This document shows, in pieces, positions 7,081 to 33,253 of a DNA stretch of 33,676 bases. The DNA comes from Candidatus Sulfotelmatobacter sp. Lineage in GTDB: Bacteria > Acidobacteriota > Terriglobia > Terriglobales > Acidobacteriaceae. The translations under genes and the position numbers were made by a program. A model generated the notes under the pieces. That model was not told the origin of the DNA, ran no database searches, and saw nothing but the letters and a program-made list of their open reading frames with translations. Each line of letters begins with the position of its first letter. The stretch's first letter is position 1. The stretch is taken from contig JASHQK010000259.1 in assembly GCA_030039195.1 (NCBI GenBank), positions 1 to 33,676 of the forward strand, in the 5' to 3' direction.

Positions 7081-7636
7081 AGTTAGTTTCAAAACGATTC
7101 TGACCTGGTAAGGGAGTCTCGCGGCCGCACGCTATTCCATTGTTCGTGCACAACGCCGATCGAGGAAAGGCACTCCAGCGAGTGGATTGTGATAACGAGA
7201 CATACGGGAGTCTTCACGGAATTATGCAAATGGGACCTGCCACAGGTTGCGATGCAGTTGGTCTCTTGCCAAGAATCTGGGCCAACCCGCGTGAGAGAAG
7301 TCCGGTAAGTTGGGTATGCCAATCTACCGCGCATGACTCGATGAAAAAGTGAGAATTCACCGAACAACAGACCGCGTATGTTTTGCGGGAGCCGTAGGCG
7401 GGACTACAACGGGGGGAAGCAGGTTGCAAGATGGAGGTCAGCACCAAGATCTGCCACCGCTCGAAAGCGAAAAAGAAGTGGATGGGTACCAATGATACTA
7501 AGAACCTGAAGCAGATAGGGGAACGACGACCGTAAGCTGAAGGAACTTCGGGCGGAGCCGAGGTTTGATTGCATAGGTTTCAAAGACGTTTCTTCAGAGG
7601 TTGTACGCATTAAAAGGGAAAACCTGAAAATGCCGC
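7081..7636. other. Intergenic region between the exopolysaccharide operon and the beta-helix gene
   Basis: About 556 bases after the last operon gene, before the beta-helix gene on the same strand. It should hold the operon's end and the beta-helix promoter, but I found neither a hairpin with a T-run nor a convincing -35/-10 pair. A T-rich stretch (on the - strand, about 7630-7610) follows the HAD stop without a stem. Open frames in it, such as 7404-7652, look like chance. Nothing else recognised. Confidence 0.5.
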
Positions 7637-9425: not shown

Positions 9426-9447
9426 AAAGGTCATTCCTCGACCTGGT

Positions 9448-14227: not shown

Positions 14228-15213
14228 GACGCGACCGCCATTGCCTGCACCTCGATACCATTATCCAGTTCTTTGAACGTCTGTATGTTGGAATACACGG
14301 GGTTGTCCCAATCGGAAAACTTTGAGACATTGTCCATCAACGAATTCACAATCGACCTCACGTCTCCAGTTGGATGGAAGCTCAAGATGTTTGCCGCACG
14401 TTGTGTATCAACCTTGTAGTTTCGAAAATCTTCAATGTGTTTGATTTCAAGGCTGATGTGCTTGTTGCTTTTTTCTTCAATCGCCTTCTTCACTAGATCG
14501 CCAACCTCTCCGACCGTGTAGTTGGCCGACGCGATGTTGAATACCCCAGACAAGCTGTAATTCGCCTCGAGAGCACGAATATATGCAGTCGCAGCGTCCT
14601 CGATCGAGAGTATTGGCCTCCAAATTGAGGGATTGTTAACCGTAATCTTGCCCTCTCGCATAGCCGCCTTAAACATCGTGTTGATAATGAGATCCAGCCG
14701 CATTCGAGGACTATAACCAGAAATCGTCCCTTTTCGAAGGGAGATGACCGAAAACTGTTCGCTGCCCAACTGCAGCACCGCTTGTTCTCCTTGAAGCTTC
14801 GAGATTCCGTAGGGATAACTTGAGGCCACAGGGCGGCTCTCGTCGTACAACTCATTCTCGGTATAACCGTAGACCGAACAGGAAGAAGCGTACACATACC
14901 GTTTTACACCTGCGCGCTTCGCGATATACGCCAAGTAGGCGGGAGCGGCTGCATTGAATATGAAGTTCTTGCTAGGTGAGTACTCTGCCATCGGGTCATT
15001 GGATAGCCCGGCCAGGAATACCACTTGATCATAGGGCTCCAAATCGTCCACTCCTAAACTAAAGATATCCTTATGGATGACCGTGACCTGACGTGGGAGA
15101 TGGTTACCGAACCAAAAGAGGTCTACGACATCTACCTTGTAGCCACGCTCCAGTAGTCTTGGAATAAGCACACATCCGAGATAGCCCGCCCCTCCTGCGA
15201 TTAACACTTTCAT
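14224..15213 (-). CDS. NAD-dependent nucleotide-sugar epimerase/reductase (extended SDR)
   Basis: 329 residues; ATG 15213 with AGGAG 5 nt upstream. The core has GGAGYLG (7-13), the active-site strand YVYASSCSVYGYTENE, and the YPYGISK catalytic motif. The Ser-Cys-Ser-VYG segment replaces the TDEVYG of 4,6-dehydratases, so this is more likely a 4-epimerase or reductase than a dehydratase. A RIWRPILSIEDAA-like region (PSIWRPILSIEDAA) is the usual substrate-binding part. It lies between rmlC and rmlD, so it probably acts on the same keto-sugar branch or on NDP-heptose. The product is unknown. Confidence 0.83.
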   Translation of the reverse strand: MKVLIAGGAGYLGCVLIPRLLERGYKVDVVDLFWFGNHLPRQVTVIHKDIFSLGVDDLEPYDQVVFLAGLSNDPMAEYSPSKNFIFNAAAPAYLAYIAKRAGVKRYVYASSCSVYGYTENELYDESRPVASSYPYGISKLQGEQAVLQLGSEQFSVISLRKGTISGYSPRMRLDLIINTMFKAAMREGKITVNNPSIWRPILSIEDAATAYIRALEANYSLSGVFNIASANYTVGEVGDLVKKAIEEKSNKHISLEIKHIEDFRNYKVDTQRAANILSFHPTGDVRSIVNSLMDNVSKFSDWDNPVYSNIQTFKELDNGIEVQAMAVAS

Positions 15214-15224
15214 GTCGTCTCCTC

Positions 15225-15821
15225 TTATGTCTTCAGCAAAGTTTGCATTCGTTCTGAGTACTGAAAAAAGTCCGCCTCAGGACACAATAGCCACTCTGAG
15301 AGCTTCAGCGCTTGTTGATCTCTTTGAGACACCAGTGGATCTGTGATCGGCCAATCGATTCCGACCACGGGGTCATTCCACAGAATTGCGGATTCCGCCT
15401 TGCTGTTGTATATCCCGGTACACTTATATTGGATTTCGACCGTTTCAGAGACAGCGCAGAAGCCACGCGCGAAACCGGCCGGTGCCCAGATTTGCCTGCG
15501 GTTTTCCGCCGAAGCGTAAACACCAACCCATTTCCCCAATGTCGGCGACTGCTTCCGAATGTCTAGGGCGACCAGGTAAGCAGTCCCTGCCGTCACCCGC
15601 ATTAGCTTTCCCATTGGAGGATCCCACTGGAAGTGTAGCCCCCGAATCGTTCCCTTGGATGAGCGCGAATGATTATCCTGAACAAATTCGGTTGGCAGAC
15701 CCAACGCCGCGAACTGGTCACTGCGAAAGGTCTCCATGAAGAAGCCCCGGTTGTCCTGAAAAATATCAGGGATGATTACTACAACGTCATTCAGATGACG
15801 CGAGTCAATTCGAATTTCCAT
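15225..15821 (-). CDS. rmlC: dTDP-4-dehydrorhamnose 3,5-epimerase-like (RmlC)
   Basis: 198 residues with the RmlC cupin: D23-N-R25-G (QDNRGFFMETF), TIRGLHFQ with catalytic base H63, K72 (MGKLMRV), WAPAGFARGF, and Tyr132/Tyr138 in QYKCTGIYN, the usual acid position. It inverts C3 and C5 of dTDP-4-keto-6-deoxyglucose; related enzymes act on GDP-keto-heptoses in some heptose pathways, which matters here because heptose genes are in the same operon. The stop is 11 nt upstream of the next gene's start. The initiation site has no strong Shine-Dalgarno sequence and follows the preceding stop by 5 nt. Confidence 0.9.
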   Translation of the reverse strand: MEIRIDSRHLNDVVVIIPDIFQDNRGFFMETFRSDQFAALGLPTEFVQDNHSRSSKGTIRGLHFQWDPPMGKLMRVTAGTAYLVALDIRKQSPTLGKWVGVYASAENRRQIWAPAGFARGFCAVSETVEIQYKCTGIYNSKAESAILWNDPVVGIDWPITDPLVSQRDQQALKLSEWLLCPEADFFQYSERMQTLLKT

Positions 15822-17150: not shown

Positions 17151-18671
17151 TTACTCGAATAAATTGTCCATAGACCATCGATTCATCCGCCAATCTACCA
17201 ATTTCGCCGAGGAACGCAACACGGAGCCGTACAAGACGAATATGAGTACGGTCGCGAGAGGCAAGTAGGCGCACGCACCTGTTCTAAGATTGTTCCAAGA
17301 TGAGCAAAGCGCAAACCATGTCGCGCAGGTACCGTACGCGATAGCAGTCCGGCTTATATTCTTATAGCTTCCTCTGGTTACCAATCTTAGCGAGTTCTCA
17401 TTCAGCGCCCACCAGATCGCGAGAGCACCTAACATGGCAAGCGGCATCATTGAGAGCCTGCCTGTGCGACGAGCGAGGTCGAGAAGAATCAGGGCAGCAA
17501 TTAACCCTACGCAACAGCCAAAAAGCAGTCGTCCCAGTCGTAGTGAGCTTCGAAGATAGTTTGACTGAAGAATGTGAATCACTGCTGTAAAGCCAGTTCC
17601 GAGCATCAGTAGTCGGAGCACAGGTAGGCTGGGGACATAGCTTGGCAGTAGACGTGTGATCAGCCAATGCAATGGAAAATACCCGACTAGACCAACCGCC
17701 CACATCGCAACCAATACGGCTTCGCCCAACCAGTAGCCCTCAATTCGCCGTTCCTGCCCAATACGGTCGGAAACATACGGGAATACCACCCTTGAGATCG
17801 AAAAGATTATCGTATTTACTACGGCAAGGGCCGTTGCGGCCAGACTATATATCGCGAAGTCACGGATACTGTAGCTGATGCTCACCACAATGCGATCGAG
17901 AGATAGCGCTATATTGGTTAAGAGTAGTGCCGCTACCACAGTCCAACCAATCCGGACATTGTGAATGCCGACTCGCCACGCATCGCGACAACGCGGCCTT
18001 GCCGTCCGGAACCTGCTGTACAAGGACACCCACACTGGGATTCCAGCGAGCAGCCACGACGAAATGAAAGCGACAATGACGGTGAGAAGCGTCATGTGCC
18101 CTATGTAATGTAAGGCCAGCACACCGGCCAATAAGAGAGCCGGGGTAAGAATGATGGCCGCTGAAAGCAAGGTGAAGGCTTTCTCCGCTTGCAGAGCATA
18201 TTGTCCGAAGCTGCACACATTGAACACCACAGCATAAGCTGCCAAGGTTAGCACTAGAAAAAACCACGGCTGGCGGTGGAACAAGAGCGCGAGAATCGCG
18301 GTCGCCGGGATCAGAATGACTGCGTGTACCGCCAGAAGAAAAGCGAGAGTGCTAAACAGTTCCGCTTTCATCCGCTGCTGCGGACGGGCCGCCCAACGGA
18401 TCAAAGCCCCGTCCAGCAGGCCGAGATGCAGCACTCCGGCAAAGCCGCCATAAAGAATAAACAGCCGGTAATAACCGTAGCTCTCCATCGACAACCATCG
18501 CGGAAGCAGGAATGTGAGGACACCGTTGCAGACAAGAGCAATCAGATTCGCGGTGCAATGAATCACAACGTGGCGTACGAACGAGCTGCCCGATACCTCA
18601 CGCGCGCAGGTTCGGATCTCGAAATCAGCCGGCTCTCCGCGTTCTGCGATGGTCGTTCCGGGCGTCACCAT
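17151..18671 (-). CDS. wzx: Wzx-like polysaccharide flippase (MOP superfamily)
   Basis: About 506 residues. I chose ATG 18671, with AAGG 5 nt upstream, over a TTG at 18695 inside the preceding gene. An N-terminal soluble stretch of about 30 residues is followed by 12-14 hydrophobic helices, starting VVIHCTANLIALVCNGVLTF and ending with ATVLIFVLYGSV near the C-terminus. Charged residues inside helices (for example LLDGALIRWAAR, and SLDRIVVSISYS in the middle) fit MOP/polysaccharide-synthase proteins. It should translocate the lipid-linked repeat unit across the inner membrane, feeding the Wzy-like polymerase at 23468-24901. Together with Wzz and Wzy this marks a Wzx/Wzy-dependent pathway rather than an ABC-transporter one. 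Confidence 0.85.
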   Translation of the reverse strand: MVTPGTTIAERGEPADFEIRTCAREVSGSSFVRHVVIHCTANLIALVCNGVLTFLLPRWLSMESYGYYRLFILYGGFAGVLHLGLLDGALIRWAARPQQRMKAELFSTLAFLLAVHAVILIPATAILALLFHRQPWFFLVLTLAAYAVVFNVCSFGQYALQAEKAFTLLSAAIILTPALLLAGVLALHYIGHMTLLTVIVAFISSWLLAGIPVWVSLYSRFRTARPRCRDAWRVGIHNVRIGWTVVAALLLTNIALSLDRIVVSISYSIRDFAIYSLAATALAVVNTIIFSISRVVFPYVSDRIGQERRIEGYWLGEAVLVAMWAVGLVGYFPLHWLITRLLPSYVPSLPVLRLLMLGTGFTAVIHILQSNYLRSSLRLGRLLFGCCVGLIAALILLDLARRTGRLSMMPLAMLGALAIWWALNENSLRLVTRGSYKNISRTAIAYGTCATWFALCSSWNNLRTGACAYLPLATVLIFVLYGSVLRSSAKLVDWRMNRWSMDNLFE

Positions 18672-18684
18672 GAAAGCCTTAGTT

Positions 18685-19545
18685 TCAACTCGCAACGAGA
18701 TCTAGACGCTCCGGGCCACGCGCTTTACGGGACTGCATAGACGGGTGGTCGAGCGAGTAAAACGTATGCATTCTACGCAGCCAAAGACGCTCCGCATAGG
18801 GACGGCCTTCAGAAAGCCAATCGTCTCGATCAAAAAACCGTTGACTAGATATCGAGTTGAACTCACTGAGAGCTGCTGCCTCGCCTACTCTGCGTGGTAC
18901 AAAGGCATGGAGATAGTCATCAAAATAACACTCGATCAGCGGAAGGATGGAAGTTGTCGGGGCATCCCGCAGAGCCGTACAAATCGCTTTCGTACTGGAA
19001 TAATAATCGACATCGACCGAAACAAAGCCAATCGGAAGTCGAGTGCCGTTCCGCAGCCAGCTAGGAAGGGTATCTTCGATGCGACCGATAATTACGTCAG
19101 CATCAATAGGAAGACGCTGCCGCAGCGTCGTGAGATTACACGGAAAGTCTCCGGCGTTCCAGTGCCAGGGTGCATCCCGGGGATCTTCGCTCTCCGGAAG
19201 TCCTCCTCCTGCATCGAAGCCGACGACTTGAATCTTCAATCCGGTCAGCCGCGAAGCCAACTCGGCGTACTTTGATAACGCCAGCAACCCGTTGCCGCCA
19301 GCTACGCCGAATTCAACAGCCGTGAAGCCTGGCGATCCTTCTCGTTCGGCATACTGCGCAGCAACTAGGAGGCCGACCCCATAGGCAGTGTATGAAAGCG
19401 CATCGAAATCAGCCGCCCACTCGAATATCTTCGGACTACGGGGCAAAAAACGCTGAGCGATTTTAAGAGCCGTCGTAGTAGCTAGTCGTAGTGGCGGTTC
19501 CGATAGGAGTAATTTCATGTACCGTCTTAACCGCGGTTTGCTCAT
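18685..19545 (-). CDS. SAM-dependent methyltransferase-like protein
   Basis: About 286 residues from ATG 19545, which has AGGG 7 nt upstream; in-frame ATGs at 19572 and 19602 are weaker alternatives. The nucleotide-binding loop VEFGVAGGNGLLAL followed by VVGFDAGGGLP is a class I methyltransferase motif I and acidic loop; VSVDVDYYSSTKAI marks the later strand with an acidic metal or substrate site (TylF/MacF-like). It could O-methylate a sugar hydroxyl of the repeat unit or of the nucleotide sugar in the cytoplasm. It overlaps the region before the flippase start and follows a glycosyltransferase gene. I am sure of the fold but not of the substrate; a non-methylating homologue is possible. Confidence 0.75.
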   Translation of the reverse strand: MSKPRLRRYMKLLLSEPPLRLATTTALKIAQRFLPRSPKIFEWAADFDALSYTAYGVGLLVAAQYAEREGSPGFTAVEFGVAGGNGLLALSKYAELASRLTGLKIQVVGFDAGGGLPESEDPRDAPWHWNAGDFPCNLTTLRQRLPIDADVIIGRIEDTLPSWLRNGTRLPIGFVSVDVDYYSSTKAICTALRDAPTTSILPLIECYFDDYLHAFVPRRVGEAAALSEFNSISSQRFFDRDDWLSEGRPYAERLWLRRMHTFYSLDHPSMQSRKARGPERLDLVAS

Positions 19546-19608
19546 CTTTTTACCCTGTCCGCACCGCAACATCTCATTCTCTCGCCGACCTGCAGCTATC
19601 ATGAAAGG

Positions 19609-21767: not shown

Positions 21768-22559
21768 CTATTTGTAACCGTAGATCAGGACGTCCTGAAA
21801 AACATTCCGTAAAGCAACAGGAAAAAACCAGGCATTTAGCTGATATTGCCAGCCACAGTTTTCGAGAATCTGCAAAAACCTGCCTAGAGCCGACGGTTCG
21901 TCGGAAATGTGGTGGTGATATTCGATTATCAATCGCTTCACCATGTTCATTTTTCCTGATTGCACGAGTTCCCCGATTACCCGTGACTCGGCCCCTTCCA
22001 CATCCAGTTTCAGAAGATCGACGGAGGTCCCGATATATTCAGACAGCTTCCTCGCAGGAACCTTTATTTGCGTTCCTTGTGTTCGGGCAGGGTTCAAGCT
22101 CATCAGAAGGGATCCACGCTCATCACGCTTGATGTAAAACGGCATTTCGACGTTCTCGTCCCATAGAGCCACATTGCGAGCCTCGACTCCAGCTAACCCA
22201 TTTCGTTGAATGTTCTCACACAATACTCCAAATGTAGTAGGATCCGGTTCGAAGGCGACAACTCGGCTCCGTGGATAGAGCCACTTGAAAAAAAGAGTGG
22301 CCATTCCAATATTGGCTCCACAGTCGAAGATCACAGGCTGATCCGAGTCAGACTCAAAGAAATATCCTTCTCGTGCAAACACTTCGTGGAAGAGTTGGGT
22401 GAATGAGTCCTTGTTGAGGTATCTGACATCGAAACCCATAACGTGCTTGGAAGCCCTGATGGACAGTCCGCACAATTCAACCCAACGCTTCAGTTTATTA
22501 GGCGCACGTCCCTGCCATAAGAGCTGAGAACTGCGGACGTATCTAGTTATCTGTTGCAT
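21768..22559 (-). CDS. FkbM-family methyltransferase
   Basis: 263 residues. The SAM-binding signature FDCGANIGMATLFFKWLYP (motif I) is followed by VVAFEPDPTTFGVLCENI, then LLKLDVEGAESRVI and LIIEYHHH, the standard FkbM order. Such enzymes O-methylate sugars in the cytoplasm. Its ATG overlaps the stop of the upstream glycosyltransferase by 13 nt. It is the second methyltransferase gene of the operon, so the polysaccharide probably carries two kinds of O-methyl group, or one methylates a terminal sugar to stop chain growth (inference). Confidence 0.92.
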   Translation of the reverse strand: MQQITRYVRSSQLLWQGRAPNKLKRWVELCGLSIRASKHVMGFDVRYLNKDSFTQLFHEVFAREGYFFESDSDQPVIFDCGANIGMATLFFKWLYPRSRVVAFEPDPTTFGVLCENIQRNGLAGVEARNVALWDENVEMPFYIKRDERGSLLMSLNPARTQGTQIKVPARKLSEYIGTSVDLLKLDVEGAESRVIGELVQSGKMNMVKRLIIEYHHHISDEPSALGRFLQILENCGWQYQLNAWFFPVALRNVFQDVLIYGYK

Positions 22560-23401
22560 AATTCGCTGACAGATTGCTGCCTCATAAGATCAGTCCAATC
22601 GATTCCAGGGGATAGACCATTCTTGTCGAGATGAGTGGCAATTCCTGGAACTGGAACCCACAACTTAGCCCGATGGCCAAACAGTAACTGGCGATAGCAA
22701 TAGATCCAAGCCCTGACCAGAATCTTCCAGTAAAACTCCTGCCGACACAGATATCGAATGAATACGAGCGGATTGAATACTCTATCCTTGGTCATGCTAA
22801 GCCATAGGGCACAATCGTCATTTCCGTTGGAATAACTCCGGAAGATCGACTCATACCGCCTAACGGTTTCTCTCGTGGTGAGAAAAGTCAAACAGGTCGA
22901 GGACGCAGTACGCCAGTGACGACGGCCATCCGTACCAAGCCATTTTCGTTTGCGATGCAGATACAGACGATAGCAGTCGGGATGGTCGTAAGGGGAGACG
23001 AAGTCCACGTCATCAGATGAATTTAAAAACTCCACGAGAGCACCAAACTGATCGGGCACGTATACATAGTCATCCTCGGCGAAGTACACGCATGAAGCGC
23101 AGTCTTGTTTTGTCAGGACGTCGATCTGCCGGCCGAAAGTAGCTCGGTTGCCGATGGGAGGATCGAAACGTAATACAACCAGATCTTCGGGCCGAATGTG
23201 TCGGCGGAACATTTCCTCGTATGATTCCGGGCATCCATCGAGGAGCACCCAAAATTTGGCGCGGATCGACCCTAACGAGGCAATGAGAGAACGAAGGCAG
23301 ATCTCGGACAATTCAAGCTTATCCACTGCAAACGGTAGACCCTGCGCCGGCTTTGAAACATAGGGGCAAATTCGATAGGCAATCGCTAAATCGTAGTTCA
23401 T
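22547..23401 (-). CDS. GT-A-like glycosyltransferase family protein
   Basis: About 284 residues from ATG 23401, where the homology-like start MNYDLAIAYRICP begins; ATG 23446 (15 residues longer) and 23419 are possible, and none has a strong ribosome-binding site. It has a Rossmann-type N-terminus with FWVLLDGCPESYEEMF and an acidic metal motif YFAEDDYVYVPDQF, as in GT-A enzymes. The middle VDFVSPYDHPDCYRLY and SSTCLTFLTTRET resemble acidobacterial glycosyltransferase-like proteins. No transmembrane helix is obvious. It may transfer an activated sugar to the growing repeat unit. The family assignment is moderate; the donor is unknown. Confidence 0.72.
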   Translation of the reverse strand: MNYDLAIAYRICPYVSKPAQGLPFAVDKLELSEICLRSLIASLGSIRAKFWVLLDGCPESYEEMFRRHIRPEDLVVLRFDPPIGNRATFGRQIDVLTKQDCASCVYFAEDDYVYVPDQFGALVEFLNSSDDVDFVSPYDHPDCYRLYLHRKRKWLGTDGRRHWRTASSTCLTFLTTRETVRRYESIFRSYSNGNDDCALWLSMTKDRVFNPLVFIRYLCRQEFYWKILVRAWIYCYRQLLFGHRAKLWVPVPGIATHLDKNGLSPGIDWTDLMRQQSVSELCNR

Positions 23402-23467
23402 TTCCGTCACTCGCGGCATGCTATGGAAAGAGCAATCCTGGTTCACCTAAGCCGCTTTTATTATTTC

Positions 23468-24901
23468 TCAGGCTCTGTTCGGGGCTTTGCTAGCGGTTAG
23501 AGTGCACCCACACAATCCTAGATGAACCCAGAGGAACGAAAGCATTGTTCCATCCGTTGCCTGAAATGTAATCACATAGACGAAGAACCCCAGAGCGAGA
23601 GAAGTCAACATTGCCAGTTGCGTCCCCTCAGAACGGTGGGCTTGTTTTAGCATGGAAGCGATCAAAATGACAAAGAAAGCGAGAAGAGTAAGCGATCCCA
23701 GGATTCCGGTATCATGCAGTACCCTGATGGTAGTATTGCCAACCCAAGCTCCCCGACCCGCGGTATCGGCGGCTTGAGAGCCGTAGACGTCGCTCAAGTC
23801 GAAGAAAAGTTGGAGACTCGAAGTCCCAGTGCCCAGCAATGGGTGCGAACGAATGCCCTCGATTGCGGCAGCATCCTGAATAAAGCGGCTCATCGTTGTC
23901 TCGTCGTTCAAGAGATCGCTCATGTCAAGAGTGCTGAAACGTGCCTCCAATAAAGGATAAACAACCCGACTCAACACCGCAGCAAGCGTGCAAACCACCA
24001 CAGCCCACTTAACGGCCGTGCCTAAGCTGACCCTCACTTTCTTTCTTGCGACCCACATCACGAACCCCAGCATGACCAGAAGGGCGAGTATTGGTGCTCG
24101 CGACAAGCTAATGACAGTTGCCAGGCTAGCTATAAGAAACCCGCCTGCATAGAGCCGGCGACGCGCATGGTCATCAAAAAGATAAGCCGATGCGCACATG
24201 ACAGCGCAACAGGCCGAATATGCCCCAAAAAGGTTCGCCTCGAAGTGCGTACCGAACGTTCCCGGTATCGCTCCGTACTGGTCAGCTTCGACACCAATTT
24301 GTGTTCCAAAGAGTCGATTCGACAAGAAGCAAAGGACTCCGAAAAGCGATTCCATGATGCCGATCGTAACCAGAAGTCGCCAACAGCGCACGACCTCCTT
24401 ATATTCCGTAATGAGATGGCGCAGAATGAAGTACGGAAGCAGGGCGATGACACTCAGCGCAGCCCATCGCAAGGTCCTGGACGGTTCTGGAGACATGAAG
24501 GTCGAAACCAAAAGGCTAACAACAGCGTATGCAAGCAGTGGAAGATCTGCTGGAATGATCTGAAACTTCTCCCCTCTACCTGCCAACCGCTTTGCCCCGA
24601 CGACAAATATGACAAGTGCCGTCGCGACATATTCGGGATGGATGTGATAATTCCCAACCTCCCAGGTAATTCTAGGCATTACGCTGCTGATTGCAAGGAG
24701 TGCGAATCCACCTACGGAACCAATCGCAACAATCGCAAACACTAACAATGCGCCGCCAATTACAATCGTGACGGCCCATCCGGCCAGACCCACTCCCTCC
24801 GTGGCACAAAGCCAGCCAACGATTCCGAGTTCGATGGCGGCGGCCACTTTCGTGAGCCGAATCAAACGCAACGATGAGTGCTTCATCGCTGAACTGGTCA
24901 T
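23468..24901 (-). CDS. wzy: Wzy-like O-antigen polymerase/ligase family membrane protein
   Basis: 477 residues with about 10-12 hydrophobic helices (first AAAIELGIVGWLCATEG, last ALGFFVYVITFQATDG). The long periplasmic loop at about 310-400 contains SRFIQDAAAIEGIRSHPLLGTGTSS, the HPLLGxG block of the Wzy_C (O-antigen ligase) family, and VISLSRAPILALLV precedes it. It should join undecaprenyl-linked repeat units in the periplasm. The ATG overlaps the stop of the Wzz-like gene by 4 nt (ATGA), a natural pairing because Wzz tunes Wzy chain length. A surface polymer ligase role is the alternative. Confidence 0.88.
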   Translation of the reverse strand: MTSSAMKHSSLRLIRLTKVAAAIELGIVGWLCATEGVGLAGWAVTIVIGGALLVFAIVAIGSVGGFALLAISSVMPRITWEVGNYHIHPEYVATALVIFVVGAKRLAGRGEKFQIIPADLPLLAYAVVSLLVSTFMSPEPSRTLRWAALSVIALLPYFILRHLITEYKEVVRCWRLLVTIGIMESLFGVLCFLSNRLFGTQIGVEADQYGAIPGTFGTHFEANLFGAYSACCAVMCASAYLFDDHARRRLYAGGFLIASLATVISLSRAPILALLVMLGFVMWVARKKVRVSLGTAVKWAVVVCTLAAVLSRVVYPLLEARFSTLDMSDLLNDETTMSRFIQDAAAIEGIRSHPLLGTGTSSLQLFFDLSDVYGSQAADTAGRGAWVGNTTIRVLHDTGILGSLTLLAFFVILIASMLKQAHRSEGTQLAMLTSLALGFFVYVITFQATDGTMLSFLWVHLGLCGCTLTASKAPNRA

Positions 24902-26256
24902 TTGAGGCCGACCTTTGTCCGGTATTTTCCTAATGCACTGTTCGTTCGGGACCGCAGGTCGAGAGCGGCCTCCTCAACATCATTGCGCACTGTAGTGGCA
25001 AACTGCTTCCAGGTGGCTTGGGCGTCAGTGTCACTCCACACTTGGCTCCCTGCGATGTATACCGCGGTCACGACAAAAATGGCAAGAGCTCCGAGCACCA
25101 TGATCAGCAGGCGTGGCGGGAACGATTTCTTTTCGGGCACCATTGGCGCATCCAGAACCTGGACCACCGGGATCTCTTTGGCTTCTTGGATTTTGGCCAG
25201 CTCATATTGCTGCGTGAGCAGTTCGTAGACCTTTTCTTGAATTTTGGTCTGTCGGTATAAGTCAGCCCAGCGTACACCTAAGAGTGGGAGTTGCCGGATG
25301 GTTGGAAACTGAGCCGGTGAATTCGGAGAATTGGTAGCTTCCGGCGTAGAGTCCAGTCCGCTGAATTTGTCGAGTTGCTGCTTAAGTTCATCTACCCGGG
25401 CACGCACGGAGCGCACACGGGCGTTATTTGGTGTATAGATCTGTTCCAATCCTTCGAGTTCCGATTGCGCAGCGATGAGTTCACCCTCTAACTTAGCTGC
25501 TGCCTCGACCATTGCCTTGCCCTGCTCGGTGATATCAATGGCCGTATTCTTGCTCGCGTATTCACTGAACTGCTGGGACGCAGTATCGAGATCACGCTTG
25601 ACGGTTTTTAGACGCTGTTCGATGAAGATTCTTTCGCGACGGGCAGAGGAAGTTGACACTTGCGCGACCAAACGATCGAGTTCTTCGACATAGGCCTGCG
25701 CCATGTCACGCGCGTGATAAGGATTGTGATCGGTCACCACAATCGTGATCACTCCGCTTTTGCGATCTTCGGAAATGCTCGTGTATTTGGCCAGAACTTT
25801 GCGAGCGTCCTCCTTATACCTGACGTGGTAAACCTTGAGCAGATCAAACCGGCTGATGATTGCAGTTTGCACAGTGCTTCCTGAGAGGATGACAACGAAT
25901 AAAGCGCCGGAACTTTTCATTCCCAGAAGATCCCCAGCCAGAGCGCCGAGTCCAGAAGTGCTGGAACCAGCCAAAGCCGCCATCATCGCCACCCCAGAAG
26001 TCGATTGTGCATCCGGAGGCATGAGGCGAGCCGTCGATTCATAATCCTTGGGAATCAGGAAGGCAATGACTGTCGAGAGTACCAATCCCCAAAGCGTCGC
26101 TGTGGCCAAGAGCCTGCGTCGGTCCCAAAGCAGCCACAGCCATTCGACAGCTTCAATTTTCGCAGCTGTCTCGCGGACCGCGAATCCGTTTCTTGGGGGC
26201 TCGAGTTCGCCGGGCATCTCGACCGGGGCTGCTACGGCTTGTATCGAACGTTTCAC
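24898..26256 (-). CDS. Wzz-like polysaccharide copolymerase (chain-length determinant, no kinase)
   Basis: 452 residues: cytoplasmic N-terminus (1-47), transmembrane segment 1 (about 48-69, LLATATLWGLVLSTVIAFLI), a large periplasmic part with coiled-coil runs (RRERIFIEQRLKTVKRDL to LEQIYTPNNARVRSVRARVDELKQQL), then a Pro-rich PVVQVLDAPMVPEKKSFPPR before transmembrane segment 2 (about 382-403). The 49-residue C-terminal tail has no Walker motifs and no Tyr cluster, so there is no BY-kinase domain (PCP-2b type). No separate Wzc-like kinase gene is in the window. Controls chain length with the Wzy-like polymerase. It lies 7 nt after the PAP2-Wzi stop. Confidence 0.88.
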   Translation of the reverse strand: MKRSIQAVAAPVEMPGELEPPRNGFAVRETAAKIEAVEWLWLLWDRRRLLATATLWGLVLSTVIAFLIPKDYESTARLMPPDAQSTSGVAMMAALAGSSTSGLGALAGDLLGMKSSGALFVVILSGSTVQTAIISRFDLLKVYHVRYKEDARKVLAKYTSISEDRKSGVITIVVTDHNPYHARDMAQAYVEELDRLVAQVSTSSARRERIFIEQRLKTVKRDLDTASQQFSEYASKNTAIDITEQGKAMVEAAAKLEGELIAAQSELEGLEQIYTPNNARVRSVRARVDELKQQLDKFSGLDSTPEATNSPNSPAQFPTIRQLPLLGVRWADLYRQTKIQEKVYELLTQQYELAKIQEAKEIPVVQVLDAPMVPEKKSFPPRLLIMVLGALAIFVVTAVYIAGSQVWSDTDAQATWKQFATTVRNDVEEAALDLRSRTNSALGKYRTKVGLK

Positions 26257-26263
26257 AACGTGC

Positions 26264-28807
26264 TCAGTTCGAGTTGTTTCGGTCGCCAGCTTTGCTGAAG
26301 TGCATTTTGGGATAGAACGTAAGTTGAACTGACGCGCTCACGTCCGACTGCCGAGTCGTGCTGATGACTGGGAAACGCCACTGTTCGTATTGGAACAAGC
26401 CAGAAAGTGCTATCTGGTGAGACAGCAGAAAATTTCCTTTGGCCGAATAGCCGGCCAGTCGACCGCCTTCAACAAACTTAGGAGATACCGTCTGCAAGCG
26501 ATAGCCAAACTGTAGTTGGTTGCGAGGAGAGAATGAGTAAGTGAGCCATCCTTGCACACCACGACTTGCTCGTCCAACTGGGCTTCCGAGGAGGTTACCA
26601 TCGTTCGTATACCCATCAAGGAAGCGACGTTCATCGAAATAAACGAAGCCCGGGGGAAATTGATGATTTCGGGACTCGTTAATGCCCTCGGCTCGGAATT
26701 CAATCTTAGACAGTCCCGGCAGCTGCGGCATATAGATGCCAGGATTCACGTTTGCCCGAGTGGAGCCAATAGGCGAAATTTCGTCGACCACCAAAGAGTC
26801 GAGGTAGAAAGTCAACCAGTCCCGCATGCCAGGGATTCGGTAAGTGAGATCTGCTGCCGAAATTCGTTTGCCGGGGTTGTTAGTGGCGGTCGATGAGTGG
26901 GCGTATAACGTGCGAAAAAAGTTACCGAACGTAACGGGTAGTCCTGGGCCGCCAAACATCGCGGTGTATCCCATGCCGAATTCGAAATTCGGGGTGGGCT
27001 GAAAGCTGATCTTTCCTCCATGAATAAACGGTTGCGGCGAGATATTTGGGCCAACTACATCCGAATATCCGGGATACGATTGGCACGTCGCAACAATACA
27101 GTACTCCCAGCGATGCCCTGAGAGCTGTCCAATGAAAAACTCCGTTCTAAAAGGACCCAGAATGCGGGACAGCCCGGGCATTTGGTGTGGTACCACATCG
27201 TCGATCTCGACCATCGGAAAAGGCCTGGCATTATTGCTCATTAACCAGGGTCCTGATTCTGTCGGGCCCAGCCATGCGCTCTGCGTTCCGACAGAGATCT
27301 GTACGTTGTTGATGTTAATGGACGCCATGCTATCGAGCAGTGCCAACTTGTTTGCTTCGGTTGTGCCGTTGGGAAGCGGCGGCGTGCCGTCGGCGGCAGC
27401 CGTGGCTGCAAGAACCGATGAAGGATACGACGGCATCGCCGGCGCGTGCTGATATTCGCCGCGAAGATAGAAAGAAACTGGTCCGACCTCAGCGTCCGCA
27501 GTTAGGCCGGTGACGTTATTAAAGCCTTCCCAGTACGGGCGGCCATAATCGTTGACGATCGTTTGACCAAAGTGATAGCTATCCCGGAGAGGCGTTCCCG
27601 AAATGCCCATTGCGCGCGTGTACACGGATTCTACTTGTGCCCCAACATTCGGAGCACCGTCCAGACGTGCAATCTCAGGTCTAAATTCCATTGTTAACGT
27701 AGAATAGATTTTTCCAGCCTGGCTGGTGACGTCGGTTGGAAACTTCTCTGAAGCGTCATCCAGGAGTCTGGCACACGCCATGCGAGTCCACGGGCGCATC
27801 CCTAACATGCCGGATTGGACATAGCCCAAGGCAATTAATCGTTGCATCGCCGGATAAATCCAGCTGTCCAATGGGACATATGGAGACGCCATATAGTTCG
27901 GGTTACGCCCTGTCTCGCCGGTCTTCTCGTCGAACATGTTGCCCCAAGCCGAACCGCCAAGTTCAGGATCATGATGCGAACGATAAACCTGACGTGCAAA
28001 ATACCAACCCACGAGGCTGCCGATGATCACGTCGGAAGGGAAATGTTGTTTGGCGGTAACCCGGGTTAAGCTAACAGCAGAAGCCAATCCATAAGCGGCC
28101 ATTTGACTAAACCACCCGGGATACTCGTGCGCCCAGACACTGGCTACGGACCAGGCAATCGTCGAGTGCATCGACGGAAATGAACTTCCACCGGCGAAAA
28201 AGTTACCATGCCCGTTTGCCTGATATGGACGTTGCCTCTGGGCGGCCTCTCTGAACGCAAAAGCCGCAGCTGCGGCATCGAGCGCGGCTTCGCCTGACAG
28301 TAGACCGGCTTCAGACAATTGATCATTGCGCCTTATGTGGCCCAGAAGAAAGGATGCGCCACTCAAGCCAATGAGTGAATAAGTACCATAATCTGATACT
28401 TTCTTGCTGATCGCTTCGTGGCTGACCGGAACCTGCTTCGACAGCCAGCTGTCGGTTGCTATGAAAGCCGCCGTCAGGCTTGCCCCCGGCACGATCCACT
28501 TCAAGTCCTTCGTCTCGAAACGCGAGGGAAGTGTCCAGAACTGCTTCTGATCAGAGGCCAAATGCTTGAAGAAAGGCGTCAGCAAACGATTTTGGGGATC
28601 CTCGCCGGGCTGAAGTAGATCTCCAAAAGTAGCGCTGTCAGTTTTCGCGAACGCTCCGGAATTCGTGTTGGCCAACGTCTGGTCGTGACCAGGCGATGGA
28701 GCCGACGGTAGGCTTGAATCCGCTGTCTGGGCGAAGGCTGTATTGCCAATCAGGAACACTAACATCACAATGTACCCGCACGGTCCTGGCCGCAAAATCC
28801 TAATCAC
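26264..28807 (-). CDS. Fusion: exported PAP2 phosphatase + Wzi-like outer-membrane beta-barrel
   Basis: 847 residues from GTG 28807, which has GGGG 6 nt upstream and gives a compact signal peptide (IRILRPGPCGYIVMLVFLIG...AFAQ); a TTG at 28849 inside the upstream gene would add 14. The N-terminal domain (about 100-280) carries all PAP2 motifs: REAAQRQRP (R-x6-RP, with Arg in the usual Lys place), SSFPSMHST (H214) and TRVTAKQHFPSD (R249, H255, D259). From about residue 310 to the end it is a Wzi/capsule-assembly-like porin rich in aromatic beta-strands (RPYWEGFNNVTGL, FRTEFFIGQLSGHRWEY, RNQLQFGYRLQTVSP, ending in LTFYPKMHF). PAP2 may dephosphorylate undecaprenyl pyrophosphate on the periplasmic side or remove polymer-end phosphates, while Wzi binds surface polysaccharide. 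Mature protein would be periplasm/outer membrane. Confidence 0.86.
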   Translation of the reverse strand: MIRILRPGPCGYIVMLVFLIGNTAFAQTADSSLPSAPSPGHDQTLANTNSGAFAKTDSATFGDLLQPGEDPQNRLLTPFFKHLASDQKQFWTLPSRFETKDLKWIVPGASLTAAFIATDSWLSKQVPVSHEAISKKVSDYGTYSLIGLSGASFLLGHIRRNDQLSEAGLLSGEAALDAAAAAFAFREAAQRQRPYQANGHGNFFAGGSSFPSMHSTIAWSVASVWAHEYPGWFSQMAAYGLASAVSLTRVTAKQHFPSDVIIGSLVGWYFARQVYRSHHDPELGGSAWGNMFDEKTGETGRNPNYMASPYVPLDSWIYPAMQRLIALGYVQSGMLGMRPWTRMACARLLDDASEKFPTDVTSQAGKIYSTLTMEFRPEIARLDGAPNVGAQVESVYTRAMGISGTPLRDSYHFGQTIVNDYGRPYWEGFNNVTGLTADAEVGPVSFYLRGEYQHAPAMPSYPSSVLAATAAADGTPPLPNGTTEANKLALLDSMASININNVQISVGTQSAWLGPTESGPWLMSNNARPFPMVEIDDVVPHQMPGLSRILGPFRTEFFIGQLSGHRWEYCIVATCQSYPGYSDVVGPNISPQPFIHGGKISFQPTPNFEFGMGYTAMFGGPGLPVTFGNFFRTLYAHSSTATNNPGKRISAADLTYRIPGMRDWLTFYLDSLVVDEISPIGSTRANVNPGIYMPQLPGLSKIEFRAEGINESRNHQFPPGFVYFDERRFLDGYTNDGNLLGSPVGRASRGVQGWLTYSFSPRNQLQFGYRLQTVSPKFVEGGRLAGYSAKGNFLLSHQIALSGLFQYEQWRFPVISTTRQSDVSASVQLTFYPKMHFSKAGDRNNSN

Positions 28808-28820
28808 GCCGCGCCCCAGC

Positions 28821-31800
28821 CTAGAAGGTCCTCGCTGCACCAACGGCAAGTGCTACAGCCGAGAGGATCTGTGCTGTCTGTATTGTGTTCGTCCAGGCAC
28901 GACTGACTGTGATGACCTTCTCGGGGACAACCACCATATCGCCGGGCTCCATCGCCGCGCTCTTGGCTCCTCCGCTGAACAACCCGCCTGGTCCGCCGAC
29001 GACAGAACCGTCAGCCCGGATGACGAAGAGGGCTTTTTTGTTCGCCATCTCGGTGGGTCCGCCCGCTTGCTGCAGATACCATCCCGCATCGCGTCCGGGT
29101 TTGAAAGTTATGCCCGTGGCGTTGTAAACAGCACCATCGACGAGCACTACGCTTGGTCGCTTCGGAACATAAATGGTATCGCCGTTGCGCACCTGAACAT
29201 CCGCCGCCGTATTCGCCCAACGCGCCACATTACTGGAGATGTGGATGACCATTCGGCCCTGAGGAGGTGCGTTCTGCAATTTCTGCAAAGTTACTTGAAA
29301 CTGTTGAATTGCAGCATCCTTGGCTAGCGCATCCTGCGGATTAGACTCCGGGAGGACCTTGATGTTAGCGGCTTCCCCTTGGACACGATCCAGCAAGCTC
29401 AAGCGGTTCTTCTCCTCGAGTTCTCTGATTTGCGGTCGCTCGAAAACCGCGCCGTACGGATAGGCATCACTGCGGAAACCACCTGCGCGCCGAATGATCG
29501 AGCTGAGATGTTCACCCTCTTGAATGCCATACGTTCCAGGGTGAACGACTTCTCCGGTAACAGTAATCGTCGCACCCACATCTTTCCAACCAGACAGTTG
29601 CTGGATCGTTAGAACATCGCCGTCTCGCAGCCGCACATCTGTGTCAGGTTGATTGGCTAGAGCTGCGCCGATAGGAACGGATACGTGGTCGCTGACGATC
29701 TTAGTGCCTTGTTCCAGTTCGTAACGGGTCAGATCCGCTTCTTGCGTGTAGGCGCCCCGTTTCAAGCCGCCCGCGAGACGAACCAGATCCGCAGCGGTCA
29801 TACCGTCGCCGAGAGGATACTTGCCGGGACGAGCCACCTCTCCTTCCACCGAGACAGTAGGTGGGTCAAGCTTGTTGAGCTCACGGTGAATGAAGATGCG
29901 ATCCTTCGGCTGGAGTTCGATGTTATCCTTCGCATCTCCATCAAGGGCTTTGGCCAGGTTCACATTGAGGACTTCCAACTTGCCGTCATTCGTCTTACGA
30001 AAGACTTGGGCATCGCTCAGCAAAGCATCGCGGGTCGCTCCCCCAGCCAAATAGACCGCGTCACGAAGGTGCGTAACGCCATTCGTTAAGTGGTCTCCGG
30101 GATCCCTCACCTCTCCGGTAATCGTGATGATCGGGGGATCCTCGAAGTCGAATCTTCCAAAGACGCGGACGATATCAAAGGGCTTCAGGACCAGATCCTG
30201 ATCCTTGCCGGCGAGGGCATCACCCAAGTTAAAAGTCAGCACTTCGGGGGCATAATCAGGCGGAGACAGGCGGATGATCTCGGCGTGACTCGTTGCTGGC
30301 TCCGGCAAAAGATCCTTGTAAGAAGAGATCAGATCGGTAACCTTCATCCCGTCGCGATAAGCAAATTTTCCTGGGCGAGAGACATGTCCATCCAGATAGA
30401 CCGTCTTATCGGCGTAGGGCAGGATTGGGGTGATCTTTATCTTGTCTCCGTCCTGGACCGCGAAATCCTCCAACGCCTTTGCAACCGATGCGTCGTTGTT
30501 TGTCTCCGGGATGTCCAGACGGAGCATCGTCCGGGCTTCGTGACTTTCGACTCTTTCGACGTCTACATGGCGCAACGTGCCTGAAGGCAGAACACCGCCA
30601 GCAAGTTGCAGGACTTCGGCCAGATTCTTCTCGCCATTGAGTTCGTAGATCGCAGGTCGCCGCACCATGCCCTCCACCGTGACTAACCCGCTCAACGGTG
30701 GCACCTCGATGGTGTCGCCCGCCTGCAGTCGCTGAACGTCACCTCGAATGCCGTGCAGCAACAGATCGTAGCTGTCGATTTGCTGAATGAGTTGCTTGCC
30801 CCGGTAGTGGCGGATGATTCTAAGCGAACCCTCTGATGTTGGACCTCCCGCGAGATACAAGGCATTGAGTGGAGTGGAGAGGGAACTTACATCGTACGCT
30901 CCGGGGCGTTCCACATCTCCCACAACATAAACCCGCACACTTCGAATGCGAGAAAGCGAGACGTCGGCGTCGATACCGCGGAACTGGCTCCGGAGAACCG
31001 CTTGGACCACACGCTGAACATCGCCCAGATTGTGCCCGGACACCTCAATGGCACCGACTTCGGGCAGCGCGAGACGACCTTCGCGGTCAACAACTCGTTG
31101 CAGGCGTTGCGAAACACCACCCGTAAGATTGATCGTAAGTCCGTCGCCTGGCCCGACTACATAATCGGGGCCCACTGGCAGATCCATTGGAAGTTCGTCA
31201 AAATTACCAGTGCCATTGCGGAAGACATCCTCACCGAAGCGTTCCAATCGGGGCGATCGCTTTGAGTACTGTGCGTACAAGTCATAGAGCGAAGGTACAT
31301 CCGCGTAAGGATTCGGGCGATAATGGAGTCGCGGTTGCTCAGGCGGCTTCGGCACTGTGTATGACGGAAACTCGAGACTGCGTGCCTCAAGACGAGCTTC
31401 TTCGGATCCAAATCCGTTCTCTGATCCCTGACGGTTCGTCAACGAACCGAGCAGGGATGCGCCAGCAGAAGGCAAACTCATTCCTGGCATCCCCGATGCG
31501 GCACTTCCATCCAACATCCCCTGATTGGACATCGAGCCAGAAGTCCCTGTCTGACCTGCGCTCAACAAGCTCGGGAGTTCATCGGGTTGAATGCTCGCCA
31601 TCTGACTCTCGTCGCTGTCGGAGCCGAAGTAGTCCTGCGGCTGGGCTTGGGTCATTTGAAGCTGGCCGCCGTAAGTCGTGGACGGAACCGGTTGGGGAAC
31701 CTGGTTCGGATACTGCTGCCGCGGAGTTGCTGGGCCCGTATATGGTTGCTGAGAGTACTGCTGCTGTGGATAGGTTTGTTGCGGATACGCAGACTGCGGG

Positions 31801-32459
31801 CGTTGCTGCGGATACTGTTGAAAGGGCGCCTGAGTGGTCAGAGGCTGCGTGTACATAGTTTGCGCAGTAGTGTTAGGCAAGTATGGAACGAGATTACAAT
31901 CTACGTCATCCTGGTGTTTCAGCCAATACGCTGCCTCTTGGTTCGTAGGAGCCACCGTCTGGCGAAACTGATCATTGCTCGAACTCCCGCCGCTGGAACC
32001 AGCGTTAGTCGTCGGCACTAGCGGCTGACAGGGCAAATCCCTCGCAATTTCTTCCTTCGTCGGCTTAGCCCTGATGTAAGACCGATCTTCGATTTGCTGC
32101 GTCGCAATGATTCGCACATTTTGATCGTCGCGGATCAAATCGAAAACCGCATCATCAGTGAGATCTTTCGGATCAAGGATTCTGCCCTGATCGTATGCCC
32201 TACGCACGAGGGCTTTTTTCACCTGCAACAACAGGCCCGTTTCATCGCGCAGAATTTGAATGATCTTGTCGGGCGACAGCGCAACCATCTGCTCCGCTTC
32301 TTGCTCGGCACGAGAATTGGCCTGGCCGATTGCAGTGCTTGGAGTGTAGGAAAAGCGCTGCTGCTGGCTCCAAAGCGAAGCGGAAGACCCAAGTATCAGC
32401 GCAATGAACGCTGCTACAACATTACTACGCACAGCAGAGGTGTAAATGGGACTAGGCAT
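28821..32459 (-). CDS. Giant polysaccharide export protein, Poly_export plus seven SLBB repeats (Wza-like)
   Basis: 1212 residues, against about 380 for E. coli Wza. ATG 32459 has GAGGGG 4 nt upstream. A signal peptide (VVAAFIALILGSSASLWSQ) lacks the lipobox Cys of Wza. Residues about 40-160 are helical; 210-264 is a Q/P/Y-rich linker with YPQQ repeats. Poly_export begins near 427 (VGPDYVVGPGDGLTINLTGG). Seven SLBB-type units follow from about 505 to 1170: VVGDVERPGAY, VEGMVRRPAIY, LDGHVSRPGKF, ITGEVRDPGDH, VEGEVARPGKY, VTGEVVHPGTY and VDGAVYNATGI, most with an LAGG/RAGG turn. The C-terminal IQTAQILSAVALAVGAA could be an outer-membrane helix as in Wza. It would form the secretion channel with Wzz. 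Sits directly after the antiterminator gene. Confidence 0.92.
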   Translation of the reverse strand: MPSPIYTSAVRSNVVAAFIALILGSSASLWSQQQRFSYTPSTAIGQANSRAEQEAEQMVALSPDKIIQILRDETGLLLQVKKALVRRAYDQGRILDPKDLTDDAVFDLIRDDQNVRIIATQQIEDRSYIRAKPTKEEIARDLPCQPLVPTTNAGSSGGSSSNDQFRQTVAPTNQEAAYWLKHQDDVDCNLVPYLPNTTAQTMYTQPLTTQAPFQQYPQQRPQSAYPQQTYPQQQYSQQPYTGPATPRQQYPNQVPQPVPSTTYGGQLQMTQAQPQDYFGSDSDESQMASIQPDELPSLLSAGQTGTSGSMSNQGMLDGSAASGMPGMSLPSAGASLLGSLTNRQGSENGFGSEEARLEARSLEFPSYTVPKPPEQPRLHYRPNPYADVPSLYDLYAQYSKRSPRLERFGEDVFRNGTGNFDELPMDLPVGPDYVVGPGDGLTINLTGGVSQRLQRVVDREGRLALPEVGAIEVSGHNLGDVQRVVQAVLRSQFRGIDADVSLSRIRSVRVYVVGDVERPGAYDVSSLSTPLNALYLAGGPTSEGSLRIIRHYRGKQLIQQIDSYDLLLHGIRGDVQRLQAGDTIEVPPLSGLVTVEGMVRRPAIYELNGEKNLAEVLQLAGGVLPSGTLRHVDVERVESHEARTMLRLDIPETNNDASVAKALEDFAVQDGDKIKITPILPYADKTVYLDGHVSRPGKFAYRDGMKVTDLISSYKDLLPEPATSHAEIIRLSPPDYAPEVLTFNLGDALAGKDQDLVLKPFDIVRVFGRFDFEDPPIITITGEVRDPGDHLTNGVTHLRDAVYLAGGATRDALLSDAQVFRKTNDGKLEVLNVNLAKALDGDAKDNIELQPKDRIFIHRELNKLDPPTVSVEGEVARPGKYPLGDGMTAADLVRLAGGLKRGAYTQEADLTRYELEQGTKIVSDHVSVPIGAALANQPDTDVRLRDGDVLTIQQLSGWKDVGATITVTGEVVHPGTYGIQEGEHLSSIIRRAGGFRSDAYPYGAVFERPQIRELEEKNRLSLLDRVQGEAANIKVLPESNPQDALAKDAAIQQFQVTLQKLQNAPPQGRMVIHISSNVARWANTAADVQVRNGDTIYVPKRPSVVLVDGAVYNATGITFKPGRDAGWYLQQAGGPTEMANKKALFVIRADGSVVGGPGGLFSGGAKSAAMEPGDMVVVPEKVITVSRAWTNTIQTAQILSAVALAVGAARTF
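31668..31829 (-). repeat. Q/P/Y-rich low-complexity repeat tract (coding)
   Basis: Within the SLBB export gene, residues about 210-264 contain repeated YPQQ-type units (QQYPQQRPQ, AYPQQTYPQQQYS, RQQYPNQVPQ). At the DNA level it is a run of imperfect CTG/TTG/CGG-rich repeats on the + strand. Probably a flexible linker that may vary in length among strains; it is not a CRISPR array. Confidence 0.75.
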
Positions 32460-32628: not shown

Positions 32629-33183
32629 TCACGACACAGGCTCAACATCGGCTTCCCCGATTTCCACTGCCACGGAACGCTGAATCGCCGAGATCGAGAT
32701 AATTAGTCGATTCCGCTGTTTCCGGCGCACGAAAATACCTTCCGCGCCGCTCATCGGCCCGCTCGTAATTCGTACCCTTCGCCCTTCTTTCAGATAGGGA
32801 TGAGGTTGGACGACAATGGAACCAGTTGTTCCCCGGCGCAGTGCGTCGATCTCCGTTGCGGCTATCGGTGCCGGCTTCCCCTGAAAACAGACTAACTGCA
32901 CTACCCCAGGAAGACGAAGAACATCAATCCGGTTCTGCTCCGTGACTTGCACAAATACGTAGCAAGGGAATAAAGGCAAATCGAGGCACTTCCGCCGGTC
33001 TTTCCACCGCCGCACGGACGAGTACAGCGGCAGAAACGATTCGATCTGTCGTTCATTTAACTGGTGGGCAACATACTTTTCGTGTCGGGGACACGTGTAA
33101 GCCGCGTACCATGGTGTGCCATAACAAGCGGGATTCTGTTGACCCTCGGTATAGTTCATCGGCTCTGTTGTCGGGGATAGCAT
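32629..33183 (-). CDS. NusG-family transcription antiterminator, UpxY/RfaH-like
   Basis: 184 residues from ATG 33183 with GAG 6 nt upstream; GTG 33213 is 10 residues longer and ATG 33159 eight shorter. NGN domain: WYAAYTCPRHEKYVAHQLNERQIESFLPLYSSVRRWKDR, then LPLFPCYVFVQV and LRLPGVVQLVCFQGKPAPI. C-terminal KOW: LKEGRRVRITSGPMSGAEGIFVRRKQRNRLII. The NGN start and FPCYVFV block fit specialised NusG paralogues that sit first in long polysaccharide operons and suppress termination/polarity by binding RNA polymerase. It is the promoter-proximal gene of the 25-kb operon, exactly the expected place. Housekeeping NusG is unlikely because secE and rpl genes are absent. Confidence 0.93.
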   Translation of the reverse strand: MLSPTTEPMNYTEGQQNPACYGTPWYAAYTCPRHEKYVAHQLNERQIESFLPLYSSVRRWKDRRKCLDLPLFPCYVFVQVTEQNRIDVLRLPGVVQLVCFQGKPAPIAATEIDALRRGTTGSIVVQPHPYLKEGRRVRITSGPMSGAEGIFVRRKQRNRLIISISAIQRSVAVEIGEADVEPVS

Positions 33184-33253
33184 TTGTCGCTCATCTAGAT
33201 ACAGCTTCGCCACCTTACTTACAAGGCACAGTCGGGTATAAGTGCCGTATTAA

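Follow-up and report, generated by a model that had tools for sequence, protein, structure and literature searches.

Wzi of Escherichia coli K30 (2ynk) is a capsule-anchoring outer-membrane lectin that is encoded in a polysaccharide cluster and in which a helical periplasmic part, likened to DnaJ-like domains, precedes the beta-barrel; the accessible portion of its description mentions no PAP2 domain, and the legend of Figure 4 in the same work already places Wzi homologues from Acidobacteria in the tree (PMC3791409). In OmpM of Veillonella (stalk 8bz2), an SLH-type domain is located directly ahead of an outer-membrane barrel, which in this case is a different, trimeric porin, and the accessible account describes no phosphatase. 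A secreted domain is also attached to a Wzi-like barrel in Fibrobacteres-Chlorobi-Bacteroidetes (FCB) group bacteria, where the partner is TonB-C; the accessible part of that study shows no PAP2-Wzi fusion (PMC12419801). Outer-membrane proteins rarely carry additional fused domains, according to a 2016 survey that mentions SLH-bearing porins and in whose main text neither 'PAP2' nor 'phosphatase' occurs (PMC4827864). Here we describe a stretch of 33,676 nucleotides from Candidatus Sulfotelmatobacter sp., a member of the Acidobacteriota (assembly GCA_030039195.1, contig JASHQK010000259.1; this entire stretch is referred to below as the window), which encodes a PAP2 phosphatase domain, an SLH-like domain and a Wzi-type barrel in a single polypeptide. 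Like E. coli Wzi, this protein has a helical periplasmic part before the barrel and belongs to a polysaccharide cluster. Both halves represent known families, and the SLH-barrel arrangement is known as well. The complete architecture can probably be found in public domain databases; no description of a PAP2-Wzi fusion was found in the accessible parts of the literature searched, a coverage that leaves out most subscription journals. We consider the chances to be about even that this fusion is the piece of a Wzx/Wzy-type export module for exopolysaccharide that resides in the outer membrane, and that it includes a predicted periplasmic phosphatase.

The fusion gene (26264..28849, minus strand, as are all its features given here) is a single open frame of 861 codons, uninterrupted in the window, which starts with TTG at 28849 and encodes 861 amino acids; an alternative in-frame GTG start is located at 28807, 14 codons after the TTG and just before the signal peptide. 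A preliminary description of this DNA gave the span as 26264-28807, of which the end coordinate stands, but 28807 is the internal GTG and the TTG-started frame runs on to 28849; the residues it named H214 and H255 are H228 and H269 in the TTG numbering, and both are present. A Sec-type signal peptide (approximately residues 15-40, 28730..28807) with a hydropathy peak of 1.62 at residue 16 and the cleavage context NTAFA/QT (YIVMLVFLIGNTAFA followed by Q) was identified by eye, without a predictor. It is followed by the PAP2 phosphatase domain (approximately residues 85-298, 27956..28597; PF01569 match at residues 202-293, E 5e-16, 59.1 bits against a curated cut-off of 27.2), a linker of about 29 residues, the SLH-like domain (approximately residues 322-400, 27650..27886), which was detected by comparing family profiles with solved structures, and the Wzi-type outer-membrane beta-barrel (residues 416-835, 26345..27604). 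The Pfam match of the barrel to PF14052 is far above the cut-off (E 2.6e-90) and covers profile positions 6-389 of 392; the family profile matches 2ynk at E 1.8e-24. Both PF01569 and PF14052 were matched in all 25 aligned fusions, the window protein included. The single frame, the signal peptide and the two Pfam domains bear out the earlier claim of a PAP2-Wzi fusion in an exported protein; the two-part layout proposed at that stage was correct for PAP2 and Wzi and missed the third, SLH-like domain between these halves.

Whole-genome surveys within Acidobacteriota (396 genomes of the phylum, 298 of the order and 45 of the genus) confirm that the fusion is genuine. In the genus, one full-length match in a single row was found in 32 of the 45 genomes, including that of the window; in four of the 32 (G433, G409, G399 and G410), the only such row holds one stop codon and the open frame is 837-860 amino acids long. 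In the order, 68 of the 298 genomes have a full-length match among the matches listed, all in the same family, and in the phylum, all full-length fusions among the matches listed belong to this family too, so that the supposition of the preliminary description that the architecture exists elsewhere holds across the window's own family. Two kinds of fusion can be distinguished, namely type A, which resembles the window, and type B, whose Wzi part is approximately 28-34% identical and which was found in 14 genomes of one genus (g4) and, showing as two rows, is omitted from the count of 68. The replacement of the fusion by separate genes in close relatives, which the preliminary description had named as the sign of an assembly artefact, was not found. 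The wrongful joining of two neighbouring genes by assembly or annotation has a negligible probability: the two adjacent overlapping frames that carry the halves in genome G445 might suggest it, but this split is due to a frameshift inside the conserved HFPSD stretch of the PAP2 motif, and the recurrence of the full-length match in the genus and order surveys excludes an artefact as the explanation of the fusion itself. Paralogues with Wzi alone or PAP2 alone are encoded at other sites in these genomes, and many genomes of the family also encode exported PAP2 relatives that stand alone.

The PAP2 superfamily is characterized by motifs of the forms K/R-x6-RP, PSGH and SR-x5-H-x3-D. All three are present in the window protein, as previously stated, namely motif 1, R200-x6-R207-P208 (28226..28252); motif 2, P225-S-M-H228 (28166..28177); and motif 3, R263-x5-H269-x3-D273 (28031..28063). 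The catalytic positions are kept, and all 25 aligned fusions share R207, P208, H228, R263, H269 and D273; the PSGH glycine is replaced by methionine, and Thr stands in place of Ser before the Arg of motif 3. In the larger set of 41 fused proteins, 39 retain RxRP, [PA][SA]xH and Rx5Hx3D in full, with K or R as the first residue of motif 1 in 36 of them. The loss of the glycine goes with the fusion: the glycine is present in none of the 41 fused proteins, which have E, D, N, T, M, A or Q instead, versus 31 of the 34 standalone PAP2 proteins with a readable motif (22 PSGH, 9 PGGH; two of 36 were unreadable, and the tree leaves out L070, L075 and L076). Among the three standalone proteins without glycine, L069 falls with standalone proteins, and L061 and L067 cluster with the type B fusions, a placement suggestive of a lost Wzi part. 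The glycine change need not mean a loss of activity because E. coli YbjG (PSDH; annotated as undecaprenyl pyrophosphate phosphatase) and LpxT (PGDH; annotated as lipid A-core phosphotransferase) also lack this glycine, which is retained in PgpB (PSGH).

The hydrophobicity of the PAP2 part was expressed as the mean of the five most hydrophobic 19-residue Kyte-Doolittle windows, without a transmembrane predictor. For the protein studied here, the top five values (1.29, 1.08, 0.96, 0.79 and 0.76) give a mean of 0.98, and the median of the fused group (27 rows) is 1.04. The inner-membrane enzymes of E. coli reach 1.85 (YbjG), 1.81 (PgpB) and 1.90 (LpxT), and a membrane-type PAP2 protein of a relative (L134) reaches 2.02, whereas standalone exported relatives are intermediate (e.g., 1.10 for L058, 1.15 for L061 and 1.20 for L066); the comparison is confined to these named proteins and the fused group, because fused genes truncated at the edge of a locus are counted in the groups labelled 'alone'. 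YbjG, LpxT and PgpB share motifs of the PSxH and Rx5Hx3D type with the fusion but are far more hydrophobic and only 198-254 amino acids long. Several strongly hydrophobic helices, as in integral-membrane PAP2 proteins of the PgpB/BcrC type, are lacking in the window domain. The view of the preliminary description that this is not an ordinary inner-membrane enzyme thus agrees with the values obtained, and the PAP2 half is probably a periplasmic rather than a membrane domain. Given its low hydrophobicity, the domain could cross the periplasm together with the barrel precursor, which is needed for an outer-membrane location. Soluble versions of PAP2 have been reported (eLife 2025, PMC12419801).

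An alignment of the PAP2 part, in which 29 of the 42 listed references were used (20 fused and 9 standalone), yielded a profile with matches to several solved structures. The best of these is 9htz (E 2.5e-10), which is titled just 'Phosphatase PAP2 family protein' and which we take to be class A-like, judging by the aligned motif; LpxE (6ebu, E 8.5e-9), a lipid A phosphatase of the inner membrane, is second, followed by the YodM/PgpB entry 5jki (5.2e-6) and the acid phosphatases 1d2t (2.6e-5) and 9jq0 (3.4e-5). LpxE and the class A acid phosphatase 1d2t share the PAP2 core only, their solved chains comprising 180 and 231 amino acids, respectively, with no barrel. The matches to 6ebu and 5jki are compatible with an enzyme that dephosphorylates outer-membrane lipids, whether phosphatidate-type lipids in the inner leaflet or lipid A during its transport, with a resulting change in surface charge at the site where the polymer is held. 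We find this unlikely, considering that most type A loci are linked to an exporter and Wzz (lipid A genes were not sought there) and that lipid A of the outer leaflet should be out of reach because the PAP2 domain should sit on the periplasmic side. Ordinary carrier recycling does not require the fusion, given that the source genome (90.8% complete) encodes its own BacA (PF02673) elsewhere; the fusion is the sole PF01569 match above the cut-off in this genome.

The gene neighborhood links the fusion to polysaccharide export. On the same strand, the upstream neighbour in the window encodes a 1212-amino acid SLBB polysaccharide export protein of the Wza type (28821..32459; PF02563 and PF10531), the frame of which overlaps that of the fusion if the TTG is the start, and the downstream neighbour encodes a Wzz/GNVR chain-length (co-polymerase) protein (24898..26256; PF02706 and PF13807), followed by a Wzy_C protein of the O-antigen ligase family (23468..24901; PF04932) and, further on, a Wzx-type flippase (17151..18695; PF01943). 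The location within a Wzx/Wzy-type polysaccharide cluster, as originally described, is supported by these Pfam matches. Among 27 type A loci, a subset of the type A matches listed in the genus and order surveys, 20 have SLBB immediately upstream on the same strand, 19 have Wzz immediately downstream, 18 have both genes so placed, and 25 have SLBB or Wzz inside 3 kb; the neighbours were sought by blastp with the window's own proteins only, so that divergent ones may be missed. In this set, L184 and L185 were dropped as coming from the same contigs as L003 and L007, the frameshifted L201 was set apart, the identical or near-identical pairs L045/L046 and L050/L051 were counted separately, and L006 was kept although it is cut by the contig end and its SLBB gene is on the opposite strand. 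In L006 (1-5279), the fusion frame is cut at the contig start and ends against the opposite-strand SLBB gene, an arrangement suggestive of rearrangement or misassembly.

On the architecture, the motif conservation, the low hydrophobicity and this neighborhood, we base a proposal for the location, activity and substrate of the fusion and for its binding to the cell wall. The export module would be ordered as SLBB exporter, PAP2-SLH-Wzi protein and Wzz. By homology with E. coli Wzi, the barrel would hold or receive the polymer in the outer membrane, with the SLH-like domain just below it in probable contact with the wall, and with the PAP2 domain hanging in the periplasm next to the exporter. 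As a secreted, non-membrane PAP2 domain with the catalytic residues kept, the latter would most likely remove or transfer phosphate or pyrophosphate at the export site. As its substrate, the polymer's reducing end or polyprenyl carrier, at the hand-over of the chain to the exporter or the barrel, is our best guess; a carrier-end phosphate or pyrophosphate would fit the position of the protein best. If extended, the linker could reach up to approximately 10 nm by our estimate, which does not strictly preclude an approach to the inner membrane. A more specific version of this proposal is that the fusion serves Wzy-type export as a dedicated end-processing enzyme, in which a wall-tethered PAP2 domain kept at the outer membrane cuts or transfers the carrier-end (pyro)phosphate as the chain enters the exporter, coupling carrier release to capture by the barrel, the same protein also being an OmpM-like wall tether on the Gracilicutes side; in this full form, the idea is a speculative one that we would not expect to hold.

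To our knowledge, the release of the chain from the lipid carrier is, like its retention at the cell surface, an unsolved problem. A 2025 review states that it is not known exactly how Gram-negative bacteria retain their capsules (PMC12220298). A natural fusion of a phosphatase with an anchoring barrel that is adjacent to the exporter and is conserved across numerous species suggests that a chemical step takes place at this site, and offers a single protein in which to test such an enzymatic step in coat export or attachment.

Several observations weigh against the proposed export role. Seven of the 27 type A loci have no upstream SLBB gene, and two (L005 and L042) have neither SLBB nor Wzz inside 3 kb; in type B, SLBB is directly upstream in none of 14 loci, and SLBB or Wzz is present inside 3 kb in nine. 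The absence of SLBB and Wzz inside 3 kb from all 39 standalone PAP2 loci, which in itself favours the proposal, may miss neighbours given flanks under 3 kb in 25 of them. Many genomes of the family carry Wzi without a fused PAP2 domain, so the phosphatase is not essential to Wzi. E. coli Wzi is monomeric (PMC3791409), and the SLH sites of OmpM form between three chains (PMC10628300). AlphaFold2 yielded no usable model, with a mean predicted local distance difference test score (pLDDT) of 29 for full-length proteins (five rows) and 54 for the SLH-like part (six rows). Finally, the glycine change could also signal altered or lost activity, a core motif is broken in two of the 41 fused proteins (D to E in L193, RP to SP in L196), and motif 1 begins with neither K nor R in three of the remaining 39. 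Together with the absence of the glycine from all 41, these replacements would be expected if the PAP2 domain were enzymatically dead and had a structural or docking role for the exporter. Such a role appears quite improbable, considering that the three core motifs are complete in all the other fused proteins and that YbjG and LpxT, which are annotated enzymes, also lack that glycine.

The same counts bear on the possibility of a phosphate-scavenging PAP2 domain, a secreted acid phosphatase of general function, similar to class A, that is only incidentally anchored in the outer membrane. Acid phosphatases are indeed among the relatives recovered by the profile (1d2t and 9jq0, along with 9htz as judged above), the hydrophobicity is low, and the standalone exported relatives fall between the fused domain and membrane PAP2 in this respect. 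Nevertheless, a scavenging function is unlikely too, given the position in exopolysaccharide operons in most type A loci, versus none of the 39 standalone relatives, and the glycine that is changed in every fused protein and kept in nearly all readable standalone ones.

The SLH-like domain came to light when the profile of the 25 fusions matched, besides E. coli Wzi and PAP2 enzymes, the OmpM SLH stalk 8bz2 (E 2.4e-5). A profile of the middle domain alone, built from 42 of 58 listed domains, both fused and unfused, matched 8bz2 at E 2.1e-7 and the SLH-domain proteins 8bys and 8bym at approximately 5e-6, the next match being at 0.44; 2ynk was absent from the matches at E up to 5. Only family profiles succeeded, the SLH-like domain of the window yielding no structure match as a lone query, and none of the 42 domains had a reported match to the Pfam SLH model at E up to 10, a search in which HMMER filters drop weak matches. 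The SLH ligand residues are W, G and T-R-x-E (PMC10628300). In the 42 domains, W and R are kept in all, as in OmpM, T is kept in 41, and G and E in 23 each; the window domain has the G, and T-R-M-A in place of T-R-x-E. Judging from these profile comparisons, the domain is nearest, among solved structures, to the SLH-barrel tethers of the OmpM type, and it probably contacts the cell wall. Given that Wzi-only relatives carry the SLH-like domain as well, it goes with Wzi and not with PAP2. NCBI taxonomy places Acidobacteriota in Pseudomonadati, and we assign them to the Gracilicutes side. The domain raises the possibility of a cell-wall contact in a phylum where such a barrel tether is unexpected and, if true, would represent an OmpM-like wall tether on the Gracilicutes side, from which OmpM is stated to be completely absent (PMC10628300).

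The history of the fusion was examined with trees of both halves. The PAP2 tree requires two changes between the fused and standalone states; a single clade of all fused proteins is not rejected (approximately unbiased test, p 0.228), and a weakly supported branch (70) separates the fused proteins plus L061, L065 and L067 from the rest. The Wzi tree requires five changes, and fused and unfused lineages are mixed. One old fusion followed by losses fits these trees best; repeated fusion is also possible. Type B fusions have a longer linker from PAP2 to the SLH-like domain than the window protein. One sub-branch of fusions (L039, L193, L196 and L198) has no SLBB gene inside 3 kb, including both proteins with a broken core motif, and PAP2 motif wear is seen in three of its four members (K to S in L039, in addition to the D to E and RP to SP replacements of L193 and L196), as if the enzyme were being lost in this sub-branch. 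A scan of viral contigs revealed no relative, and a plasmid search recovered just a Wzi-only match from Granulicella and a weak match from Klebsiella. In other families of the phylum, L070 (642 amino acids) and L075 (566 amino acids) have a related PAP2 domain towards the C-terminal end and are possibly other PAP2 fusions.

The remainder of the cluster in the window offers some hints about the polymer. On the minus strand, the order is a NusG-like gene, the SLBB exporter, the fusion, Wzz, Wzy_C, glycosyltransferases and other genes, and Wzx, and then RmlC, an epimerase, RmlD, two sugar-phosphate transferases, a SIS isomerase, a GHMP kinase and a HAD hydrolase. The NusG-family gene at the head of the cluster (32629..33213, minus strand; PF02357) is a candidate for an operon-specific antiterminator of the RfaH/LoaP kind. 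Three long frames (5188-7092, 18685-19602 and 22547-23446) have no Pfam match at E up to 0.05. The two sugar-phosphate transferases are different Bac_transf proteins (PF02397; 9448-10860 and 12681-13346), one of which has a CoA_binding_3 part, and are possibly two chain-starting enzymes in one locus. An arylsulfotransferase gene (PF05935) is located near the cluster at 3363-4871, and a relative with 44% identity adjoins the fusion in L198, so the polymer may be sulfated. The genes of the RmlC and RmlD type (13352-15821) suggest that rhamnose is present in the polymer too. The genes for the HAD hydrolase, GHMP kinase and SIS isomerase are close together (7637-11507, minus strand, by Pfam); this set resembles the GmhB/HddA/GmhA route to GDP-heptose, and the polymer may contain manno-heptose.

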